A stretch of 64,000 nt of DNA from Antennarius striatus (Eukaryota > Chordata > Actinopteri > Lophiiformes > Antennariidae). The DNA lies in NCBI RefSeq assembly GCF_040054535.1, contig NC_090785.1, positions 7,455,001 through 7,519,000 on the forward strand. The letters run 5' to 3'. The notes beneath the pieces were generated by a model that was not told the origin of the DNA, did no database searches, and saw only the letters and a program-made list of their open reading frames with translations. The position numbers and the translations under genes were made by a program. Of the stretch, positions 6,096 to 59,355 are shown piece by piece (position 1 is the first letter of the stretch; the number at the start of each line of letters is the position of its first letter).

Positions 6096-28479
<22,384 letters not shown>

Positions 28480-30268: not shown

Positions 30269-30274
30269 TTTATT
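30269..30274 (-). promoter_or_regulatory. Likely polyadenylation signal of the TNF receptor gene
   Basis: TTTATT on the + strand gives AATAAA on the - strand, 136 bases past the stop codon at 30410. Position and hexamer are the only evidence. Confidence 0.5.
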
Positions 30275-30409: not shown

Positions 30410-33196
30410 CTATGTAGTCACAGCTCTGTGTATCCGAGCAACGACTTCTGGATGAGGCAAGAGGGCAGCAGCCTGGGCCAGCTGGGGCAGCAGTGTGTAG
30501 CTGGAGGTGCACAGGTACTGAAAGAGGTCCTGAAAGCCTTTGAGATGAGCAATGACCTGAGGTGGAACACCCAGAGACCGCCCCAGCTTCCTCAAAGCAC
30601 AGCTGTTGTTGACAGAGTCAAGCAGCAGCGACAAGTCCTGGACTGAGTCGTAGTCAAGTGTCTCGATAGTTTGCCCTGTACCAGGACAAAACAGGAAGTT
30701 AAATCAAATATATAGAGAGTGTTGAACGTGGTAGAATTCATATTCATTCATTCATTCATTCATTCATTCATTCATTCATTCATTCATTCATTCATTCATT
30801 CATTCATTCATTCATTCATTCATTCATTCGTTTTCTCTAACTGCTGCTTATTTTATTCTGAAAGAAAAAACATGCATACCTTGTGCCTTTTCCCATATTG
30901 TCTGAAGATTTTGCTCCATCTAATATGAACATAGAAAATGTAAAACAGGTCCAGATCCATGTACAGTATAACACAATTCCTGCATGAGCTCAGTACACTA
31001 GTACATTATGGACATTCTACTGTGTATCTCCGTCGCTAAATGCCACAGTGGATCACAGGGATTTAAAACTGTGGTTGTGTGATTTGCTCACCACCATGTT
31101 TGATGCACCCCAACTGCAGGAACTTAACATTGAATTTAAAAATAACTGAAAACAGCTGCTCCATCGCTCAGTAACTTTGGCACAGATCCATCATAATGAA
31201 TGCATCGTCCTTACCTCCTCCATGGAGCAGCTGCTCTGTTGCTCCTCCTGCAAGCTGCAGGCCTTCTGACCGGAGGGCTTGATGTTGGTGGTGACATTAA
31301 TCACAATGGAAGTAGGATGCACCTCCTTCTCATGGCCACTGGACAATGATGAAATTGATTATGATAGAGACACAGGTACTGGTAAAATTACACTGAAATG
31401 GTAATCAAGTATTTAACATGTGTTCAGAGCACCTCAGGAGCATCTTTGCAGGACTCTGGGGTTGTGGGGCTGTTCTCTCTGTGTGGGCGGAAAACCGGAG
31501 GCCATCTGCAGACATTAGTCCCTCAGGATCAGGACAGTGCTTAGGAATCCGATCTGAATGTCACAGGAAGTGCGGATGATCCAAATTTAGAAGACAAAAC
31601 GAGAGACACATGTGCAGATGTGCAACATGCCATGTGTGTCCAACTCACTGAATCTCTCAGCCGACACGACGAAAGCCCAGAATAGCAGGGCAAGGAGGAA
31701 AAGTGAGGAAGCTGCTGCTGAACTAATCAGGACCATTGAAATTGCGTTTTCTTTCACTCCTTCTTTAAACAAGAAATCAGTCAATCCAAACTATAATAGT
31801 AAAATTAAAATCTCCAAACCAAAATTCCACAGGGATACTCACTCTGTTCTTTGGGTTCTTCCAAGTCCATGGTCACGGTGACGGCGGTCTCTATCATAAG
31901 ACAACATTAATTACTTTACCTTGGCAACGTTTCTGGAAAATCACTGGTCAATAAAACTATTTATAGAGGCTTATTAATACTGTTTGGTGTAGCATTTATC
32001 AGTGGATCTTACCTCCCTTGGCCCTCTGAGCTGTCAAATGCAAACACTCTTTATGAATCATGTTGCGACTGGAACAAGGAACACAGGGCAGCTCCACAGC
32101 ACCAGTCATGCTTCTGAGTTCATAATGCCTGTGGACACAACCACATTCATCACTCATATATTGATTTTATAGATTGATTGATTAGGGTTGGTGCTGTGGG
32201 TGGAACTCACCCTGAGAGGCACCGACCACACCGGGCATCCCCGGTGGGTGAGCATCTTGTCTCTTCCAGGCGGTTCAGCAGGTCACATTGGGTGCAGCGC
32301 ATGCAGGGGCCCACACCTGTGTCTGCACTGAACCTCCCCTTTTCACACAGAATACAGACTTCTGCTCCTCCATCTCCAAAACCACAGTCCTGCAAATGAC
32401 GCACGGACATAAAATGGCAGCAGTAAAAGGAAGGAGCACTACATGGAGGGAAGTAGTGAAGCCATTGTTAGGTGTAACGTGTGCTACCTCTGACAGCTGC
32501 ATTCCTGGCCCACATAAAAGACATGCGACACATGAACCGTTAAGGTGCAAGAATTCTGTCTCGTCACAGATCGCCTCAGATTTTACCTGCACGTAACAAA
32601 CCTGAGGAAACACATTAAAACACCATCGACAAAAAATAGCTCATTGTCAAAGTATGCGTACACTTACTTATGTGTGTGTGTCTTTGTACACAGTGTACTG
32701 CTGTGTTGTGTTACGTAATCGGGTTCTTTGCAGGAAAGATATCATCATTTCATTCAAGTTTAAAACTTGAATCAAGACTTTTAGCTTAAAACAAGTAGGC
32801 TAAGAAAATAGATATATGAAAAATAATATTCACAGAAACAAGGTGATATTTATTTATTTAAAGCTTATGACTGTATTAAAATATAATGTATTATATGTGC
32901 AAAATGAAGATAAGACATCAGTGGCCCAATTAATTAAAAGCTACTGAAATAAAACAGATTTCGTACAAATGTATCACATCATATCATATCTGAGTGTAAA
33001 CTGTGCCAATAAAGTACTGCACTATTTGTATAGTATTTTTCAGTATTTTACCAGGAAAAATATAACAGGGGAAATATTTTCATCGTTTTCCTCCCCAATA
33101 AATAATTATCACACGAAAATAGTAGAGATATGTGCAAAGAAGCATTTTAAATGTTAGACATACCAGGAGTAGAGCGGCGTAGAGACAAGCCTCCAT
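30410..33196 (-). CDS. TNF receptor superfamily member, EDA2R-like ectodomain with C-terminal death-like domain, 384 aa
   Basis: Type I membrane receptor of the TNFR family. Coding exons: 33164-33196, 32488-32601, 32211-32389, 32013-32128, 31843-31890, 31649-31762, 31433-31553, 31215-31338, 30880-30919, 30410-30675. The sum is 1155 nt and the phases fit. Residues 1-18 form a signal peptide (MEACLYAALLL...). Cysteine-rich repeats follow to about 140 with CGPGMQLSEDCGFGDGG and C..CDLLNR......GDARCG, closest in my reading to EDA2R (CGPGQELSKDCGYGEGG) and then EDAR. One membrane segment lies at about 168-194. The last exon (about 297-384) looks like a death domain (LRKLGRSLGVPPQVIAHLKG ... LPHPEVVARIH), though the usual Trp is missing. 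Human EDA2R has no death domain. It could be a fish-specific branch of the EDAR/EDA2R/TROY group, so I give no symbol. It is head-to-head with adgrg4. Confidence 0.8.
30736..30830. repeat. (ATTC)n tetranucleotide microsatellite
   Basis: About 23 units of ATTC, nearly perfect. It lies in the last intron of the TNF receptor gene, between its death-domain exon and the 40 nt exon before it. Confidence 0.95.
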
Positions 33197-34165: not shown

Positions 34166-34272
<107 letters not shown>

Positions 34273-34668: not shown

Positions 34669-34670
34669 CC

Positions 34671-34701
<31 letters not shown>

Positions 34702-46330: not shown

Positions 46331-47669
46331 TTCCTCCATATTTTTTATGAGAGAAAAAGCTATAGGATGCAGTGGTAACAATGAAAGCCACATGGAAGTT
46401 ATGGGTTCTTCAGATGTGGAAGTCCTTTTTTGTTACACTTCTTCATATGTTAATGAGGTTCAGTTCATGTTGCCATATCATAAATTTGAATTTGAACCCC
46501 AAATTACTTCAGAACAACTGCCTTTTAACTTTCGTGTGTTTTGAGAAATGTTTTAACAGGGTGCCATTCAGGTTCAGGAGGAACTGGCTGGGTGACATTC
46601 TGCCCATAACTGTCTGCATTCACCGAGCGTCCCACACCCTCTGAGTCGAAGACATCAAGTAGATTATGAGGCTCAGAGAGCAAAATGTTTTGTCTGTAGC
46701 AGAGAAGAAGGAAGGAAAGAAGGGTGACATTGGATTTTCAAACTTTATCGATATCTCTGATGTTTAAGCTCAAACCGAGCAATGCTTCTTACATGCAAGT
46801 GTGGCTGCTGCTCATTTGAGTGAAGACCAGTTTTGATCATCCAGTCAATGCGACAACACAGACTATAGTCATCTTTGGTTGATCGTTGGACCAGGTAAGA
46901 CAAGTAGATTATTTAAGAAATTGCTGGACCAGTGCTTTTTGTTTTGTTTTGTATGGGACAGATACATACTCACACATGTTGATCAGTTACATCTAATCCC
47001 AACCCAGGAAACAGACATGAAACAGCCTGCATTGAAAACCCGTGCAATATATATTCTATTTTGTAAAAATCACAAAACGTTACCACCTTGGGATAAATGG
47101 ATCACTGAGCATACAAACAGATTTTCAGAGCTGTTCAATTTAAATAAACGGAAGGTGCTCTTTTCAGTTTGTCTGTGTTAGCGCATTTGACGCTCAACCT
47201 GTTTCAAGGGAAGCCATTAGCTGTTGATGTGGTGAGTCATCAGAGTAAGTTCAGCTGGAAGTACGTCTTCTATGGAACTAGGTAAAAGGCAATCCACTCA
47301 TCTGAAGAACACTTAAGTCAATAAGATGAAATGAAAATGGTTCATTAAATGGATTCTAAACAACTTTTACCAACTAAAGACGTCATTTTGTTGTCAAAAA
47401 TAGACCAGATGAAAGGTTGTGTAGCCAAAATAGCACAAACAGGAAAGTAAAGTGATGTTGGCGCTAGCATCCGACAAATCTCAGAAACTGATTAAGTGAA
47501 ATGTGATTTAAATCTTTTTTTTTTAATGACTGCAAAGACAAAACAAACAAAACGAAAAACCATATTTTCTTGCTGAGATAATTGCAAGGTAATCCAAAAC
47601 CTGGAAGTCACATGATCAGAAAAGAACATCTTTAAATGATCCTGTTTTGTTTTCAGTCACAGCTGATGC

Positions 47670-48883
47670 ATGGAGGGAGAAACTGACTGTACGATGGCTG
47701 TGAAGGTGGAGAAACACTCTCAGTACGTCATCCTGACTTACTTCCATGGGGATACTAGCAGCATGGTAGACGCTCACTTCAGTCGTGCTCTCAGCAATGT
47801 GTCCAACACCAAGGCACCAGCAGCAAAAGTGAAGAGAGTCCGGAAGCCTATTAAATTGGGTAAGCACACACAAAACCAGCACAGTACGATCGTGCAAATG
47901 GACCAGTCAATCCCAAACATCCTCCTAAAGCAGCCTATATCTTTAACCCCCCAGAGAGAACTAGCTCCTGCCAGGGGAGTGCCGTTGACCCGTTTTCTGG
48001 GCCACAGGTCCCTTCTTCCGGTCGCCACTTGCCGTTCAGTCATGCAGACGATGTCCCCGACTCTTGGCACTCATTCACTACCAGGGCAGGAGAAGGTCCA
48101 GCGTTGGCACCTCTCGCTTACTCCCTGTCACCAGAAGGGCTGGGTGTTACCGGACAGCAATACACCACATCTCTGCTCAACCTACTGCACAATGATCAGG
48201 GTGACATGGGACCTAGCATGGCCTGCAGCTCCAAACCAGATCTGCATCCCAGCTGGACAATGCCGCAAGGATTTAGAGAGTCCATGGACCCCACTGTGGG
48301 CTTTGAACCTGGTAAGGCTTCAACTGCAATGTGACATTTCTAAAAAGGTCCCATAGAAAAACGTATTTTGATCAGACATTAGAATATCCACAAAAATCAA
48401 ACAACTTCATATTAATTATGAGATCAACTAAAAAGGGAACGTATCTACTGGTGAGCTTCTAAATGTTGTTATGAATAGTTAGTAGTTAATTGTTTTTCCT
48501 CTCTTAGAGGGATTAAGGATCATGAACCGACATGATCCTTAATCCCATGATTTAATTTCAAAGAGTAGATGAAAGTCTGACCAAAGAACATGAAGCCACA
48601 TCAGAATTATTTCTCCTTAAAATAATGTAATGATTAAATTTGAAAATAAGGATAGGATAAACTATTCATAGTGCAGGTGAAGTATTTATTGATTACCATG
48701 AAGTTCTTGATGTCCTTTTGGAAATATATGCATTTTGTTATTTGTGAAAAAAAGATAACCACTGTTTTTTTTATATTTTAATCCACATGTGTTCATATAT
48801 TAGAAATGTTTAGAAATCAATGGCATTTTGCCTCATCTCTGCCAGGACGGCATCTGGACAAGAAGGACTTGTACTGGTACTGA
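47670..48883 (+). CDS. vgll1: Vestigial-like family member 1 (VGLL1), complete, 194 aa
   Basis: Transcription cofactor that binds TEAD factors through a Tondu (Vg) motif. Coding exons: 47670-47859, 47955-48311, 48846-48883. The sum is 585 nt with phase 1 at both junctions. The first exon holds the Tondu motif at about residues 20-39: YVILTYFHGDTSSMVDAHFS followed by RALS. The middle exon is Pro/Ser/Gly-rich with LAYSLSPEGLGVTGQQYTT and LLNLLHND. The last exon gives GRHLDKKDLYWY. The start at 47670 is the first ATG in the exon opened by the acceptor at 47655-47656; an in-frame Met at 47694 is an alternative. Its place between adgrg4 and cd40lg agrees with human VGLL1. A frame open across 47860-48356 is intron read-through, not protein. 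Confidence 0.88.
48509..48546. repeat. Perfect 16-bp inverted repeat in a vgll1 intron
   Basis: GGGATTAAGGATCATG at 48509-48524 is followed after 6 bases by its exact reverse complement at 48531-48546. It lies in the second vgll1 intron. No known site type is recognised. Confidence 0.85.
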
Positions 48884-50707: not shown

Positions 50708-52081
50708 TGTTTGTTTTAAGAAGCACAGGGAACTATAAATTGAGTCTCATTGGAAAATCTTTTGCTGTTTAATGACATTTATACATAAATTAAACAATTA
50801 AATTCAGAATATTGAATCCTGTCTTCATTTAGTCCTGTGACAAACATCGTATCATTGTGCTGCTGGCAGACATCTTTTTCTGTTTTAAACTAGGATTGCC
50901 AAACTGTTTCAATTTATTAAGGTTATAATTTTGTCAGTCAGAATCAAGGAAATGAATAACTTAAAGAAAGCATAAAACAATCAATAGAGGCTGAATCAAA
51001 AGCAACAGGACTTTGACTGAAGGGTTTAAAGACGTCTCACTTCCCATTGGCTTCTTCACATCTAATGACAAGAGTGGAGTTTCAGATTTAACCTGGATAA
51101 ATAAGAATCTTCATCTGGGATGGTTGCAGTGTGGGCTAGTTGTAACACTTTCACTTTCTCCAAACAGGAACAAGTTACAACCCACCTGGGCTACTCCCCA
51201 CATGCCCAGTTTAGTCCTGAGTCCATATGTCAGGAAGTAGCACCCTGTGACTGACACAACTATAAGTTTACCAAAAAAAAAAAAAATTCTATTGTTGTCA
51301 AGCTGATACCTGGGTGTGAATAAAAAAGAAAAATAAAGTGTAAACCTTGTGACATCCAAGAAGAAGCAGAAATACATCCTTATTCTTCTCCTAAAAGAAA
51401 TCGTGTATAAAAAACAAAAACAAATTAAAAGTAAAACAAGGAGTAAAAGTAGTAATAAAATATGATTGTCAGCAGATGTTTAGGAGGAACCTGAACTGTT
51501 AATCCTTCCTGTCCTCTTGTGTTGGGCCTGATCAGGCTGATCTGAGGCAGAGGTGAAGAGTACCAGAGTTGGTCTGATGATGGTCTCCAATCAGTGATTC
51601 AAGGAAGCGATGGATGCAGACCAGGGTGCAATGATGGAGGGGTTGGGGGTTGGGGGTTGATGCCTTCTCTCCAGGGTGACTGGAACATTAAAACCTCACT
51701 CTGGAAAATCCCTTAATGTGACCTACACCAACGAGAAAGTTCCATTTCCTGCGCAATTTGCGAATTTGATTGGCGTGTCAAATGAGCTCAGCACAATGCC
51801 TCTTGAACGCACTGCATCTGCATCCTGAAAAGCAATCAGTTTGGAGGACTCGGTATCTTCCTGCGGACCACTGGCATCAAACGGCCTCATTGTGAGCATT
51901 TATGCGTGACAGAAATAAGGGGGTGGAGGGATTCAGATGGTACTGATGGAGGGGAAAATCTGAGGCTCAGCCTGATGACTGTTTTATTGGCTCTTATTGC
52001 GCGTGGAGCTGCCCTGGGGCTTGGAGCGTTTTCCTATGTGTGCCAACCTCCTCTCCAACCCTCCGCTCTCCTCTGTCTGAT
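48884..52081. other. vgll1 3' UTR and intergenic space before the opsin gene
   Basis: The first part is probably the vgll1 3' UTR; a frame open at 48828-49100 merely overlaps the last exon and UTR. AATAAA hexamers occur near 50064. An AT microsatellite lies at 50600-50702. Nothing else recognisable is seen between 50700 and 51850. Confidence 0.5.
50600..50702. repeat. (AT)n-rich microsatellite
   Basis: Imperfect TATA/ATTA sequence followed by about 20 uninterrupted AT units, between vgll1 and the opsin gene. Confidence 0.9.
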
Positions 52082-55000
52082 ATGGTCGTCCACTTACGAG
52101 GCTGCAATTTCAGCACCACAGACAGCTCAGTCTCCAACACCAGCCTCAGCACCGACGCCGCCACCCTGTGGGACACCAGGGCGTCCCAGAGCCCCGGCGG
52201 GTTGAGCCGGACCGGCCACACGGTGGTGGCAGTATGCCTCGGCTTCATTTTAGTAGCCGGCGTCCTCAGTAACTTTTTTGTTCTTCTCATCTTCGCAAAG
52301 TTTCGTTCCCTCTGGACGCCCATCAATTTCATCCTGTTGAACATCAGTCTGAGCGACCTGTTCGTGTGCGCCTTCGGGACGCCCTTCAGCTTCGCTGCGA
52401 GTCTGCATGGAAGATGGCTCATAGGAGAGCACGGATGCAAGTGGTACGGGTTCGCCAATTCCCTCTTTGGTGAGCGAACACGTCGGTAAACTGTCTGTTT
52501 AGTCTGGTTTTAGTTGTCTTAAGTACACAGTAGTGGGGGTTTTTGTGTGTGTGAGGGATTCTGGAAACAAAAGTCTGCGCGTAAAAGTATAAAACCCTCA
52601 GATCCCCCTCCGTGTCGGGTGCGCCTCGCTGAAGAACAACCGATAACATTTAATTGCGGCGTATTTCTAGTGAATGGTCAGTAAAAATAAATGAATAAAC
52701 CAGCAACTCCCAAGTTTGTGGGGAAACGTATAAACTGCCTAATGTTTACTGGAAACATATTGGATTATTGATGAGTTATGGCCTGTAAAACTTCTGTTTA
52801 CAGGATGCGTAAAATTAAACTTGTTACCATGGAAACAATTTCCCCCCCCCCGAATACGTTTATTTCTTTTGTTGTGGAAGAGAATGTTGAATAGTATTTG
52901 AGTAGCATGACATATAAGGCGGGACGGATGGAACCCATTCCCAGTCCTCTGGGAATTTAGGAATCCCACATTCCTAACACCCTAACCTGCCCCAATCCAG
53001 TCCGATTGGCCCGGCATGGGGATGGAATGACACCCTGGTGTCACTGCTTTCGTTATCTGAGATAGAACGCTGAGATACCGGCCCGATGATGGCGCTGTGT
53101 GTAAAGCCTGGGTGTGACTGCTACTCAGCTGAAGCTGGAACACAAAAAAAAAATTTTTTTTTGACCAAAAGCTTATAAGCACCAATCCAGGAGTGAAACG
53201 TTTCCGTTCAAAACTACCAATTTAAATCTAGATTTGTTAAAAGCTAGTGTCTTATTATAATTTTCATCTTTAGTATATACTTAAGAAACAGACATAGACC
53301 TGCTTATGTTTACACAAATGTAAAGATTTTTTTACTTTCTTAATTTCTATTTTATTTTGCTAAAAATAAAAGCTAAAAAGAAATCCCAACTTCTTCCATC
53401 CCGGTGTTTATTTTCTTCACAATTATATTTTTAAAAGGTGCAGAGTCATTCCCCATGTGTTAATCATATCTACCTTTCTGTCTTGAAGGGATTGTGTCCC
53501 TCGTGTCCCTGTCTGCTCTGTCCTATGAGCGCTGCACCACTATTCTAAGTTCCATCAATGTTGACGTGTCAGACTTCAGGAAGGCCTGGTTCTACGTTGG
53601 CGGCTCCTGGCTCTACTCTCTCGTCTGGACGGTGCCGCCCTTGCTGGGTTGGAGCAGCTATGGGCCAGAGGGATCCGGCACGACATGCTCTGTCCAGTGG
53701 CATCTGCGTTCAGCCAGCAGCATCTCATACGTGCTGTGCCTCTTCATCTTCTGTCTGCTGCTACCTCTTCTTCTTATGGTCTGCTCTTATGGGAGAATCC
53801 TGTTTGCAGTTTGGAGGGTGAGTTACGTATTCAGAAATAAATGCTGTTAGATTGTTTGTTTTTTTTGTTGTTTTTTTGTCTTTCTATTTGATTTTGTGAT
53901 AAACTGATGACAAAGTCATCTGGGACAGTCTCCATCCTGCCCTTCAACCCCACACAGGATAAGTAGTTATAAAAATGTAATGTGCTTCATTCATGTGTGA
54001 ATGGAAACTAACCATCCTTGTATGAAAGACCACACTAGAGAGAGCCACTGAAGTCAGCATGAATCTAAAAATAGACACCTGCCATTCATAACCACACAAC
54101 ATATGTCTGCCTTTATTATATTCCATACTGTGATCATTTCCTTGATAACAACGACACCCTGGGGGCTCATGGGAAGCTCCAATTTCTAATGTCTGCTGTA
54201 GTGAACTCTTACAGTTTGATTCAGTGAATTCACATAGAACGGGTCGTCACGCTAGATGTGTTAGTCATTTGTTTCTGAGGTAATTTTTAAAAAAAAAGCA
54301 CTGATACATACGTATGTCCTAGAAGAAATGCTTCACATTCACAATAAATATATCCACTGGGAGAGTAATCCCAGGTAATGTCTGGGAGTGCAAGGGGTTC
54401 ATTATTGGCAGAAAATTACACACTCTCTGTTTCCAGTGACTCATTCTCTCCTCGGTACAGCTTACATAACTCCGCCAGTCACTACTGTAATTGATCATCT
54501 GGAGTTGAGTCCATTATATACCGTATAACAGGGACCTCCTGGCAATGAATCACCCTGAAGATATTTTTATATTGCAGAAAAATCACGATGCTATGGTCTA
54601 CCTGCTGTTATATCAGCACCCACCTGCATTTCTTTAAAGCTTTACACCAAAGCAAGTCCTAGCTGAAAAGGGCTTTGCAGGCTTGAATATTATACTGATG
54701 AATGGGTCTTCAACAGCACACCAGTTGTCTTAATGAGAGCCTGCCCGTAGGCTCACAATAGAAACTGTGCAATCAGACAGAGGATTCCTCTGGTGGCTTA
54801 AACCGCCATGTCAGGAGGGGAGAGTAAATCATATCAACAGTATGGGTATTCTCAAGTTCTGGATGCGCATATATTTTGCATTCATGATACCTACCTAAAA
54901 TGAAGACAGCTGATCCCATAGCTTCAAGACTTTGACTGTCAATACTCTATCATCTATTAAGAATGGCTAAAATTGTACGGATAGATTACATATACAGTAG

Positions 55001-56263
55001 ATGGAGCAGGAATACCCAGTCATGTTAACACTAATGTAAATACTGTAATATACTGAATCCCAACCCGTGTGGTGTGATTACTATCACATAGACAGATTAC
55101 TGTTAATATTCAACACAATGTTTTTTCAAATATGTTGTATTCAAATGGTAGTTTTGACAAGGGTCTGGAATCCAAAGGTTGCGTTCAGACTGGCAGCCCA
55201 AATAACATTTTTAGCCCCTCCAGACTGAATGCGGATGTCTCTTTTATAGTCTGAACAGTCATATACAACACAAAATCGGATTTTTGCATGACTGATTGAA
55301 ATCAGTTTCGGGAGGTGGTTTCAAGTTCCACTTGGACAAATACGTCTCAGTCTGAACAGCTCTAAACACACTGATGGGGCTTGACTGTCTGTGACATCAT
55401 TCTATGTGCGGTCGTTGCTATGGCAACCTGTCAGATCGGCCAGTAATGTGGTCCAGTCTGAACAGAGCAAGATCCCATTTGGACACTTGGAATTTCGATT
55501 TGCCTACGGTCTGAACGCAGCCTAAGATCAAGTCCAGGTTATTTTTATCATATTGCACGTATGGTGTTTGGAAATGCAGAGGATGGGGCCAAATACATAC
55601 AGTAAAGGCGATTGTTATTCTTTTTTTATGACACCAGGTGGGTAAGATCAACCTGCTGGTGGCTCAGCGCAGAGAGCAGCATGTTTTGTTGATGGTGTTG
55701 TCCATGGTTTCCTGCTACCTGCTGTGCTGGATGCCCTACGGCATAATTGCGCTGATGGCCTGCTTTGGTAGATCAGGATTCGTCACTCCCGAGGCCAGTG
55801 TGGTGCCCTCCATCTTGGCAAAGTTCAGCACTGTTGTCAACCCCATCATCTACATGTTCTTCAACAACCAAGTAAGAGCTCACAGCAGGGTGGCATTGGT
55901 TTTTGATTGGCATTCACATGACAGATGTATGTTATATAAGATCTGATGAAGTACATCCTCAGCGCTGTCCAAACATTAAGTATAATAATCAATCAATCAA
56001 TCTTTGTTTATATAGCGCTTAATCACATGAGACATTACGAAGTGCCTTAACAAACAAAGAAACCCAGCAGACAATAAAAACAAGTGTCTCCACTTCATTT
56101 CTGCCGGTTGGTCTGGAGTCTTTAATCTATCTCATGTAATTATATTCTGCATGCACAAACATCCATCCATAATTTTTGAGCTTTTTTTTCCCCCCAGTTT
56201 TATAGGTGCTTTGTGACCTTTGTGAAGTGCAGTGGGGAACCCCAGCCTGTTCATGGAGAGTAG
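52082..56263 (+). CDS. TMT/encephalopsin-type non-visual opsin, 338 aa as read
   Basis: Light-sensing GPCR of the teleost multiple tissue (TMT) opsin group, related to OPN3. Coding exons: 52082-52469, 53489-53817, 55638-55871, 56198-56263. The sum is 1017 nt and phases fit. Seven membrane helices are visible. The N-terminus has likely glycosylation sites (NFS, NTS). The end of helix III reads SALSYERC in place of DRY. Helix VI reads CYLLCWMPYG. The retinal lysine is K301 in ILAKFSTVVNPIIYMFF, and NPIIY is the NPxxY motif. After helix VIII (FYRCFVTFVKC) the frame stops within 10 residues, giving an unusually short tail with almost no Ser/Thr (see findings). No opsin sits here in human Xq26.3. 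I cannot decide which TMT subtype it is. Confidence 0.88.
55176..55524. mobile_element. Nonautonomous DNA element with GGTCTGAACGCAGCC-type ends
   Basis: It begins AGGTTGCGTTCAGACTGG and ends CGGTCTGAACGCAGCCT, inverted repeats of about 17 bases with few mismatches, enclosing about 310 bases rich in 'CTGAAC' and 'GGATTTTTGC' phrases and no open frame. It lies in the third opsin intron. Such ends are common in fish and are probably hAT-type, but the 8-base target duplication is not clear. Confidence 0.7.
55979..56090 (+). repeat. Fish retroposon tail fragment ('TATAGCGC' type)
   Basis: AATCAATCAATCTTTGTTTA leads into TATAGCGCTTAATCACA and then GTGCCTTAACAAAC, resembling the widespread fish repeat in which TTTATATAGCGC is followed by a GCGCTTTACA-like phrase. 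Only about 110 bases are recognisable, in the last opsin intron. Confidence 0.45.
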
Positions 56264-57934
56264 TGTTCAACACAAAGGGACTAGTTCTCTGCTCTGTTCC
56301 ACAATGACCACGACCTCCTTCTTGGACATGACAGTTTTACAAACTCACGTGTCAAAGGAACTAGAAGACACAGATTTCCCTGAGGTCTCTCACCACCCTG
56401 CTACGAATTTTACATGAATAATACGTCTGTCAGCTCTTTTATTGTTCATGTTGAATGAATGCTCTGGAAACTCATGCATGTTCTCTGTGTATGCAGTTGT
56501 TGTAGATTTGAACAATTGTGCTCCAGAATGTACATCCAGATCCCAAATCAGCTTTAGTGATTTACATAAGAACAGTATCCGCCCTCGCAACTCCATGAAC
56601 TGATGATAAATTTAGTTTCTTGGACTGAATGTTTCTTTGAATTTTGGAATATCATTATTTTGATAAATAAAGAATCTTTTATGGTTCACAGATTTAGCTT
56701 TAATAGCAATATATGAATATATTCCACTGTATACACTATCTACAACAATGTGTACACACTAAAAATATTTAAAGTACACATAATAAGTGCTGCATAATGG
56801 AAACACTAAAGTCTCTACTTCCACACTGAGGTCTCTACTGCCACAAATCTATGACGAAAATGACAGTAAAAAGAGTGTCTGTTGTTTTTGTTGAACATTC
56901 AAGAAGACAAAAGATAAAGCTGAATACGTTTGCATTTTTTTTTAAAAACATGCAGTTCCAAACCGCAGTGCAACACTGACATATATTTAAAAATGTGCGC
57001 ACCATTACATTGGCGATATACCGGCCCGTCTACCCAGAAAAGACTATGCATCTATTTACAATAAAGTATGTCAAAGGAAGTAATGCCCCAGTTCAGGGCA
57101 GAGCTGACTAATGTCAGCTTATTTTGCAACTTCATGGAGGCAAAGACATCAGCATCAGCATTATCTGACTGTAATATTACCATTTCCCTATGTTTCGTCT
57201 CATATTTGTTGTAGGAAAATGACACAAAAACATTTCACAGGAGCCGAAACAGGCGTTGTGAGTTCAATGACTGACATGAGTTGGTCTCCTTGTTTGAATA
57301 GACCACCGCAGCCAAGCATAGTTAAAACAAGCATGTCCCTTACTGGTCCCAGGATTCACAGGATTCATTACGCTGATGTTTTTCATAAAAGTCACGCGTA
57401 ACAAAAGTGTTATTTCTGTAAAAAAGGTTTACAGCTGCTGTTGACCAAATCCATAACTTAGAAAATACCCACAGCGTGCAAACTGTCCACACAGATGTGT
57501 TTGGGCATATCCATCCCTATATTAAATACTTTCATGGCACTGTAAATCCTTATTTATTACATGAACCTTACATATAATTATATATATACATATACTGTAT
57601 ATCATAAAATATTCTGTATTTTCACTCTCAAAATGTAACAGTGATGCCACACTAGCAAATACATACCAGACATGTATGTGTGGCATTTAGAAATACATAC
57701 TTGAGAGAATGGAATTAGTTCATAAATACCTTACAGGCAACACAGATACTCATACACACACATTCACACACGCACATACAAACACAACACGCCTCTTTGA
57801 GGTCTACATGAAGGTTTCAGAGCTTCCTAGATGCAGCAATAGAAAAGCTCAGCTACTTGACAGAACAACAGTTCACAAGTGCATGGGATGTCATGCACGC
57901 TGGGTCTCTGTAGCTTTCACCAGCTTTCTCCATC
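56264..57934. other. Opsin 3' UTR and intergenic space before cd40lg
   Basis: AATAAA at 56666-56671 is the likely end of the opsin transcript. From 56700 to 57700 the sequence is AT-rich with nothing recognisable. The last 200 bases before the cd40lg ATG are probably its 5' UTR and core promoter, though no clear TATA box is seen. Confidence 0.45.
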
Positions 57935-59355
57935 ATGATCAACACCTACCAGACGAGCCTGGCTCCACCACCGGTGCCCCCACGCCACAGCAGGTCGCAG
58001 CTGGTCCGCATCCCGGATCCACTTCCATCACAAGGCAACAACAAGTTTCTCATCCGTTTTTTGGTTGCTGTAGTGTTGCTGCAGCTTTTCTTGACAGTTG
58101 GAGGATTTCTCTATCTGAACCACAACACAACAATGGTAAAAATAAATTTTGTAGATACGGCTTTTAATTAAATATATGTATAATACGTATGTTTGATACA
58201 TGTAATACGAAATAAGTTTAGCATAGTTGATGTTCTGAGGCAGGTAATTTCAATATTACACTTTGCATCTTAGATTATCGGGTTTTACTGGTCTAGAAAT
58301 CGTGTTATAATTGAAGTTCAAATATATACATTAAAAAACAAAGATTCATCTATTTATAAGGTTTTTCCAAATGATGATAAATCTTTATTCTTACATATTC
58401 ACAAATTTTAAATGTGCATTAATTTGCTTGGATTAAGCCACTAAAATATATGTAAATCTATTTTCTGGTGATTCAAAAACTTTGTGAATACAAACATGAA
58501 ACTGTATTTGAAGTGAAGTACAGGAGATGGTCTCGGTTAAGAAGACATAATGTTAACAGTGCAGTCTGTTATTGTTATAGACTACTTACTAATAGAAAGG
58601 TAATTTATTATGAATATTACACGTTTGTAAAAATGTTCTTTTTCATTGTAGGGTAAACATCTTCCAGCTGAAGGAAAAGGTACATTCATTTATGTTTATT
58701 TCCTTCCTGATTAGTTTCATACTTTTTTTACCGAATAACAATCCCAATAATGTCTCTGACAAGATGTTTGTTCTGTTCAGTGGCATATCTTTCAACAGAA
58801 GAGCAGAAACCAGCCTATAGAGCTTTGGCCCGCATGGTCGTTGAGCATCCGCAAGTGAAGAGAATTACATGTATGAAACTTGGATTTTTACATACTTGGA
58901 TTTAAAAAAAAAAAAAAAAAGACTTTTACAAATCTGTTAAAAGATCTATTTCCTATAATACTGCTTTTACCTCCTCTGTGTCTCCAGCCGGCTACCTTCA
59001 ATGGGACATCAAACACTCACTGCGTCGAAACATCAACTACTACCACAGCATTTGGTTGACAATCCTGCAGCCTGGTGATTACTATGTCTACTCACGGGTG
59101 ACTTTCTCCAGCAGTGACTATAAGCGGGCACTGGTCAGTATGGTCAAGCTGAGGAAGAATAACACAGAAGAGGAGAAAACTGTGATGCAGGCCTTCTGCA
59201 GCCTGGAGAGGCGCATTGTGCCTGACCTCTGCACGGCCTCGCAGGGAGAGGTGATGAAGCTGGAGGAAGGAAACCAGCTAAGTGTCTGGGTACCAGATCT
59301 TTCATGGGTGAACTACGAAGAAGGAGCAACAATTTTTGGAATGTACAAACTGTAG
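57935..59355 (+). CDS. cd40lg: CD40 ligand (TNF superfamily member 5), complete, 228 aa
   Basis: Type II membrane cytokine of the TNF family that engages CD40 on antigen-presenting and B cells. Coding exons: 57935-58135, 58652-58679, 58781-58870, 58988-59355. The sum is 687 nt and the phases fit. The cytosolic part is residues 1-42 (MINTYQTSLAPPPVPPRH), the membrane helix about 43-64 (FLIRFLVAVVLLQLFLTVGG). A short stalk follows, then the TNF homology domain from about 105 to the end: GYLQWDI, QPGDYYVYSRVTF, and the closing strand FGMYKL. A Cys pair (QAFC...PDLC) sits where human CD40L has its disulfide-bonded loop. At 228 residues it is shorter than human (261), as I would expect for a fish orthologue. 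The choice of CD40LG over other TNF ligands rests on LQW, the closing strand and the arhgef6 neighbour. Confidence 0.85.

Follow-up and report, generated by a model that had tools for sequence, protein, structure and literature searches.

Which member of the TNF receptor superfamily combines an ectodomain resembling that of EDA2R with a last exon that encodes something like a death domain, given that mammalian EDA2R and TROY are not known to have a death domain? The question is raised by a minus-strand gene in a stretch of 64,000 nucleotides (hereafter, the window) from the fish Antennarius striatus (contig NC_090785.1, here C10, positions 7,455,001-7,519,000). A reading of these letters made beforehand (the original prediction) had recognised such a receptor, left two explanations standing (an old member of the EDA2R branch lost from mammals or an EDA2R with a death domain that has disappeared in other lineages) and named a fold prediction with a profile search and a tree of ectodomains as checks. 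Here, we report evidence supporting a receptor with an EDA2R-like ectodomain and a death-like domain; at a probability of roughly 0.65, we regard the gene as the teleost orthologue of EDA2R (XEDAR, TNFRSF27), keeping an ancestral death domain that has been lost in mammals.

The gene extends from an ATG at 33196 to a stop codon ending at 30410, exactly the span originally given. In the splice model built from the window sequence, it comprises ten exons with a coding sequence of 1155 nucleotides (384 amino acids); all nine introns are GT-AG, their phases are continuous, and the frame is open across the whole coding sequence. Exon 1 (33164..33196) contains the ATG and most of an N-terminus that looks by eye like a signal peptide (residues 1-11), and is followed by a phase-0 donor, GTATGT. 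The rest of the signal-like stretch and cysteine-rich module 1, with CGPGMQLSE at its C-terminal end, are on exon 2 (32488..32601; residues 12-49), module 2 (DCGFGDGG...CGRCLSG) is on exon 3 (32211..32389), and module 3 is on exon 4 (32013..32128). By the same splice model, exon 5 (31843..31890) encodes a stalk, exon 6 (31649..31762) the transmembrane segment (the top 21-residue hydropathy window begins at residue 171), exon 7 (31433..31553) the cytoplasmic juxtamembrane part, exon 8 (31215..31338) a cytoplasmic linker in which two TRAF2-type patterns, SLQE (270) and SMEE (280), are pattern matches that may be functional, exon 9 (30880..30919) a short piece of linker, and exon 10 (30410..30675) the probable EDAR-type death domain and the stop codon.

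An AATAAA poly(A) signal (30269..30274, minus strand) 135 nucleotides beyond the stop codon fits exon 10 as the terminal exon. Exon 10 reads as coding in the receptor frame because its GC content at codon positions 1/2/3 (0.63/0.40/0.61) is like that of exons 1-9 (0.56/0.46/0.55) and unlike that of the introns (0.345 overall); further frames are open in this exon, and the choice among them follows from phase continuity, this GC bias, and the match to EDAR described below. Intron 9 contains an ATTC/TTCA tetranucleotide microsatellite (about 30740-30830), which adjoins the death-domain exon.

The motif behind the proposed likeness to EDA2R, CGPGxxLSxDCGxGxGG, is present as CGPGMQLSEDCGFGDGG over the junction of exons 2 and 3. 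Eighteen cysteines lie N-terminal to the transmembrane segment, including residues 4 and 13, which belong to the signal-like stretch, and cysteine-rich modules followed by one transmembrane segment constitute the architecture of the TNF receptor superfamily. Pfam TNFR_c6 matches residues 64-103 at E 7e-5, which is below the curated cut-off, and the closest solved structure in a PDB sequence search is the ectodomain of human EDAR (7x9g_C, E 2.9e-6, alignment spanning 23-137), with TNFR1 chains next at 9e-4 or weaker. Ectodomain identity to the receptor is 40% for human TROY, 35% for fish TROY, 35% for human EDA2R, 32% for EDAR and, over fewer columns, 33% for RELT and 35% for NGFR. The ectodomain appears to fall with TROY/EDA2R. 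Those two are 52-54% identical to each other, and the receptor, if it is EDA2R, is therefore fast evolving.

Exon borders compared within the genome point in the same direction. In EDAR and TROY, the comparison genes, module 2 occupies a single exon flanked by a phase-0 intron on its 5' side (directly ahead of the DCG module in the receptor gene) and a phase-2 intron on its 3' side; the borders in the receptor gene are identical, and the CG(Y/F)G module exon has the phase 0/phase 2 arrangement that, as read in EDAR and TROY, we take to mark the EDAR/EDA2R/TROY branch. The death-domain exon of EDAR is entered in phase 1, six residues ahead of the Leu that opens the aligned part, and exon 10 again is identical, with the whole domain in one exon, a phase-1 entry, and the same starting codon. 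The corresponding NGFR exon is entered in phase 1, too, but starts farther upstream of the domain.

The presence of a death domain in exon 10 is well supported, and sequence and model together make an EDAR-type domain probable. Residues 297-384, all encoded by this exon, form six helices in order in the AlphaFold prediction, as the helical pattern originally noticed in the last exon would have it, although at low confidence (predicted local distance difference test, pLDDT, 60). Death-fold chains top the ranking against exon 10 among 23 chains compared, a death-effector assembly chain being first and a pyrin domain second. Among 31 death-domain open reading frames of the same genome (EDAR and 30 loci extracted from 39 Death matches, the nine weaker matches being left out), EDAR is the best match, with a score of 50 versus 25.4 +/- 4.4 and 0 of 300 shuffles. 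The ungapped alignment of exon 10 to EDAR covers 60 columns with 11 identities and 22 positives, and its score was reached by one shuffle in 20,000; none of 12 other registers scores positive. A profile of EDAR places exon 10 ahead of the 590 other open reading frames of the window that were tested and of every one of the 591 reversed ones; a single shuffle among 2,000 scored higher, and the E value was 1.1. Neither an NGFR profile (rank 537) nor an EDARADD profile (rank 1834) picks exon 10 out, a mixed EDAR and NGFR profile puts it fourth, beneath three shuffles of exon 10 itself, and the PDB sequence search with exon 10 gave just a pair of weak hits (E 0.33 and 0.61), neither having a named relation.

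What this domain might bind can be approached through the positions that we take to be ectodermal dysplasia sites in human EDAR (R375, L377, E379, L397, T403, I418, and R420). Exon 10 keeps R375, L377, L397, and T403 and has Arg for E379, Leu for I418, and Pro for R420. The mouse downless-J mutation is EDAR E379K. In one passage of PMC2542418, I418 is named as a site. The pattern suggests that the fold has been kept and that the EDARADD-facing surface has changed; with Arg at the E379 position and Pro at the R420 position, EDARADD binding in the manner of EDAR would not be expected.

If the receptor is EDA2R, the genome might be expected to hold no better candidate. Searched with the whole receptor protein, the 548-Mb genome yielded 14 places, eight of which are the gene's own exons. 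The best of the others, C6:20289109 (E 6e-9), reads as TROY, with 75% ectodomain identity to human TROY; EDAR, with both ectodomain and death domain, is on C12, RELT on C6 at 23.47 Mb (named by eye from its ectodomain and transmembrane stretch), and NGFR on C9, and on sequence evidence, all four are loci separate from the receptor gene. Human EDA2R as the query found nine places, namely TROY first (49%, E 7e-14), the receptor gene second (37%, E 1e-7), and then more TROY and receptor exons, NGFR, RELT, and two weak places (C10:7937417, E 0.4, and C5:17113685, E 1.2). Among these nine best-scoring places, there is no better EDA2R candidate, and only TROY scores higher. EDARADD was located on C11, named by eye against the death-domain sequence printed in an excerpt of PMC13367198.

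Other matches to the receptor protein were of lesser interest. That on C16 appears by eye to be a further TNF receptor, and that on C14 has E 0.7. A match on C7 was dropped for two TGA codons within it, and one to the transmembrane and juxtamembrane parts (C23:895539-895691, E 0.08) was dropped for hydrophobic low complexity, a stop in the longer alignment, and no cysteine-rich exon seen; it is probably a low-complexity chance match.

The chromosomal setting was considered as well. The contig of the receptor also carries EDA, at 14.47 Mb, and a copy resembling AR, at 17.32 Mb, both 7-10 Mb distant from the gene; the best AR match in the genome is on another contig, C13. In human, AR lies beside EDA2R at Xq12, and the block corresponding to the window is at Xq26 (Xq26.3). 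A table in PMC4731439 places human EDA and EDA2R at Xq12-q13.1. A single gene relocated along its chromosome would be a more economical history than a chromosome carrying two members of the branch, and we favour EDA2R for that reason. Of the two explanations left standing at the outset, the second, in which EDA2R lost its death domain in other lineages, is the one toward which the evidence leans: no better EDA2R was found among the best-scoring places of the genome, and the gene is in the company of EDA and the AR-like copy.

Several results weigh against an EDA2R with a death domain, some concerning exon 10 and others the ectodomain. Pfam gives no Death or Death_EDAR match up to E 10 for the whole protein or for exon 10. 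Likewise, none of the 13 Foldseek matches to the exon 10 model is a death fold by title, and the position of the EDAR helix-2 Trp is Leu in the 60-column alignment. All this would suit a fish EDA2R or a paralogue with a last exon that is merely death-domain-like, a helical tail without fold or function. Such a tail would not, however, be expected to give an ungapped EDAR match that one shuffle in 20,000 reaches, or to share the intron phase and codon of EDAR and have six helices in order, and we consider it improbable. The death domain of exon 10 may nevertheless be a decayed, non-signalling one.

As for the ectodomain, one nine-row tree and three reduced sets were computed, the fish RELT and NGFR rows being partial. 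In the nine-row tree, the receptor is on the TROY/EDA2R/NGFR side (85/91) and pairs with NGFR at 44/0; by the approximately unbiased test (p-AU), grouping it with EDA2R is not rejected (0.24), grouping it with RELT is rejected (0.03), and groupings with EDAR and with TROY are borderline (0.085 each). With RELT and NGFR both omitted, the receptor joins EDA2R at 71/75, and with only NGFR or only RELT omitted, it falls outside TROY and EDA2R. The ectodomain trees place the gene inside TROY and EDA2R in one of four sets and outside in three, none of them firmly.

The pairing with NGFR and the alignments of the ectodomain to TNFR1, the strongest at E 9e-4, could be taken to indicate that the likeness to EDA2R is mistaken and that the gene is an ordinary death receptor such as Fas, a TRAIL receptor, TNFR1, or NGFR. 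This is very improbable, as the best solved ectodomain match is EDAR, the best paralogous place reads as TROY, the exon phases are of the EDAR/TROY type, and the NGFR profile ranks exon 10 only 537. Because the trees give no firm placement, a more serious competitor, which we hold only tentatively, is an ancient receptor in its own right, belonging to the EDAR/EDA2R/TROY/RELT branch and equipped with a death domain, that fish have retained between a MAP7-family gene and ADGRG4 but mammals have lost. The long branch of the gene, the 32-40% identity to named members, and the three trees outside TROY and EDA2R speak for it, as does its position in a block where we know of no TNF receptor in human (Xq26.3). 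On this view, however, this fish must also have lost EDA2R, and a single ancestral chromosome must have carried two members of the branch; the receptor and EDA2R grouping is not rejected in three sets (p-AU 0.24, 0.32, and 0.50), and the gene shares its chromosome with EDA and the AR-like copy.

The block itself contains the neighbours implied by the original prediction, and human is not known to have a TNF receptor there. LIM/FHL exons are at 313-2133 and a MAP7-family exon is at 7550-8107; TA-repeat tracts (about 34190-34270 and 34670-34700) lie directly upstream of the receptor gene, with an adhesion receptor gene (best solved match ADGRG4, E 4.5e-38) on their far side. Beyond a Vestigial/Tondu (VGLL) exon (47667-48353) follow, on the plus strand, an opsin-like receptor gene (51947-55943; for one exon, rhodopsins are the closest solved structures, at E 7e-12) and a TNF-ligand gene (57914-59352; exon 58906-59352, Pfam TNF E 8e-17), which is some 25 kb away from the receptor gene. 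Among solved structures, this ligand is closest to FasL (E 4.5e-7), followed by CD40L (4e-4), and its position suggests CD40LG by human gene order. We also entertain, as a doubtful but not negligible possibility, that the EDAR/EDA2R/TROY/RELT branch has a fifth member, which possesses a death domain of its own, is kept in fish close to the CD40L/FasL-like ligand gene of the FHL1-CD40LG block, and has been lost in mammals; its adaptor would be a different one, because death-domain positions important for EDARADD binding in EDAR have changed.

Returning to the teleost EDA2R that we favour, the protein would span the membrane once, carry three cysteine-rich modules, and probably bind an ectodysplasin trimer of the EDA-A2 type, and its cytoplasmic side would consist of a linker with TRAF2-type patterns and, at the end, a death domain that shares ancestry with the one in EDAR. 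That domain would be ancestral to the EDAR branch and would have been lost in mammalian EDA2R, which would signal via TRAFs alone; we infer the orthology, the ligand, and the partners. A chicken Xedar with an intracellular death domain was reportedly published by Drew et al. in 2007. The architecture is, therefore, probably known in kind, the fish case adds breadth, and the novelty originally claimed was overstated. If the gene is fish EDA2R, this death domain is common to fish and, as reported, birds; it would then be old, with its loss falling on the line leading to mammals, and the mammalian mode of EDA2R signalling, which uses no death-domain adaptor, would be derived. Work on scales, teeth, and fins in fish would also have one more candidate receptor for EDA to consider, in addition to Edar and Troy.

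In the open-access literature, to which our search was directed and which was consulted in excerpts, we found no description of a death domain in fish EDA2R. Excerpts of a carp-family transcriptome paper list eda2r among differentially expressed genes (PMC10837935), and a 2025 stickleback/zebrafish study examined Edar, Troy, and Relt (PMC12516321), a term search of its main text finding neither eda2r nor xedar. In the passages concerned, PMC2659790 and PMC4731439 cite Drew et al. for chicken Xedar function, and the latter, a review, credits XEDAR of both human and mouse with a death domain, contrary to how the protein is usually described; we take this to be an error that may mislead annotation.

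Among known systems, mammalian EDA2R shares with the receptor the CGPGxxLSxDCGxGxGG motif, the cysteine-rich modules, and one transmembrane segment; it differs in an ectodomain only 35% identical, and the fish protein has, in addition, a signal-like N-terminus and exon 10. The mammalian protein is given as 297 amino acids long in a passage of PMC4731439 and as type III in one of PMC6001812. NGFR (p75NTR) is likewise a death-domain receptor with a death-domain exon entered in phase 1, but its exon starts farther upstream of the domain and its profile does not pick exon 10. TROY (TNFRSF19) has the highest ectodomain identity and the same module-2 intron phases, but is a separate gene on C6 and is not known to have a death domain. 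Chicken Xedar, likened by its reported description alone, has the same combination of EDA2R ectodomain and intracellular death domain. EDAR, finally, differs in its ectodomain (32% identity), its separate locus on C12, and its E379 and R420, which the receptor does not conserve, but has the closest death domain, encoded by an exon that starts at the same codon and in the same phase.
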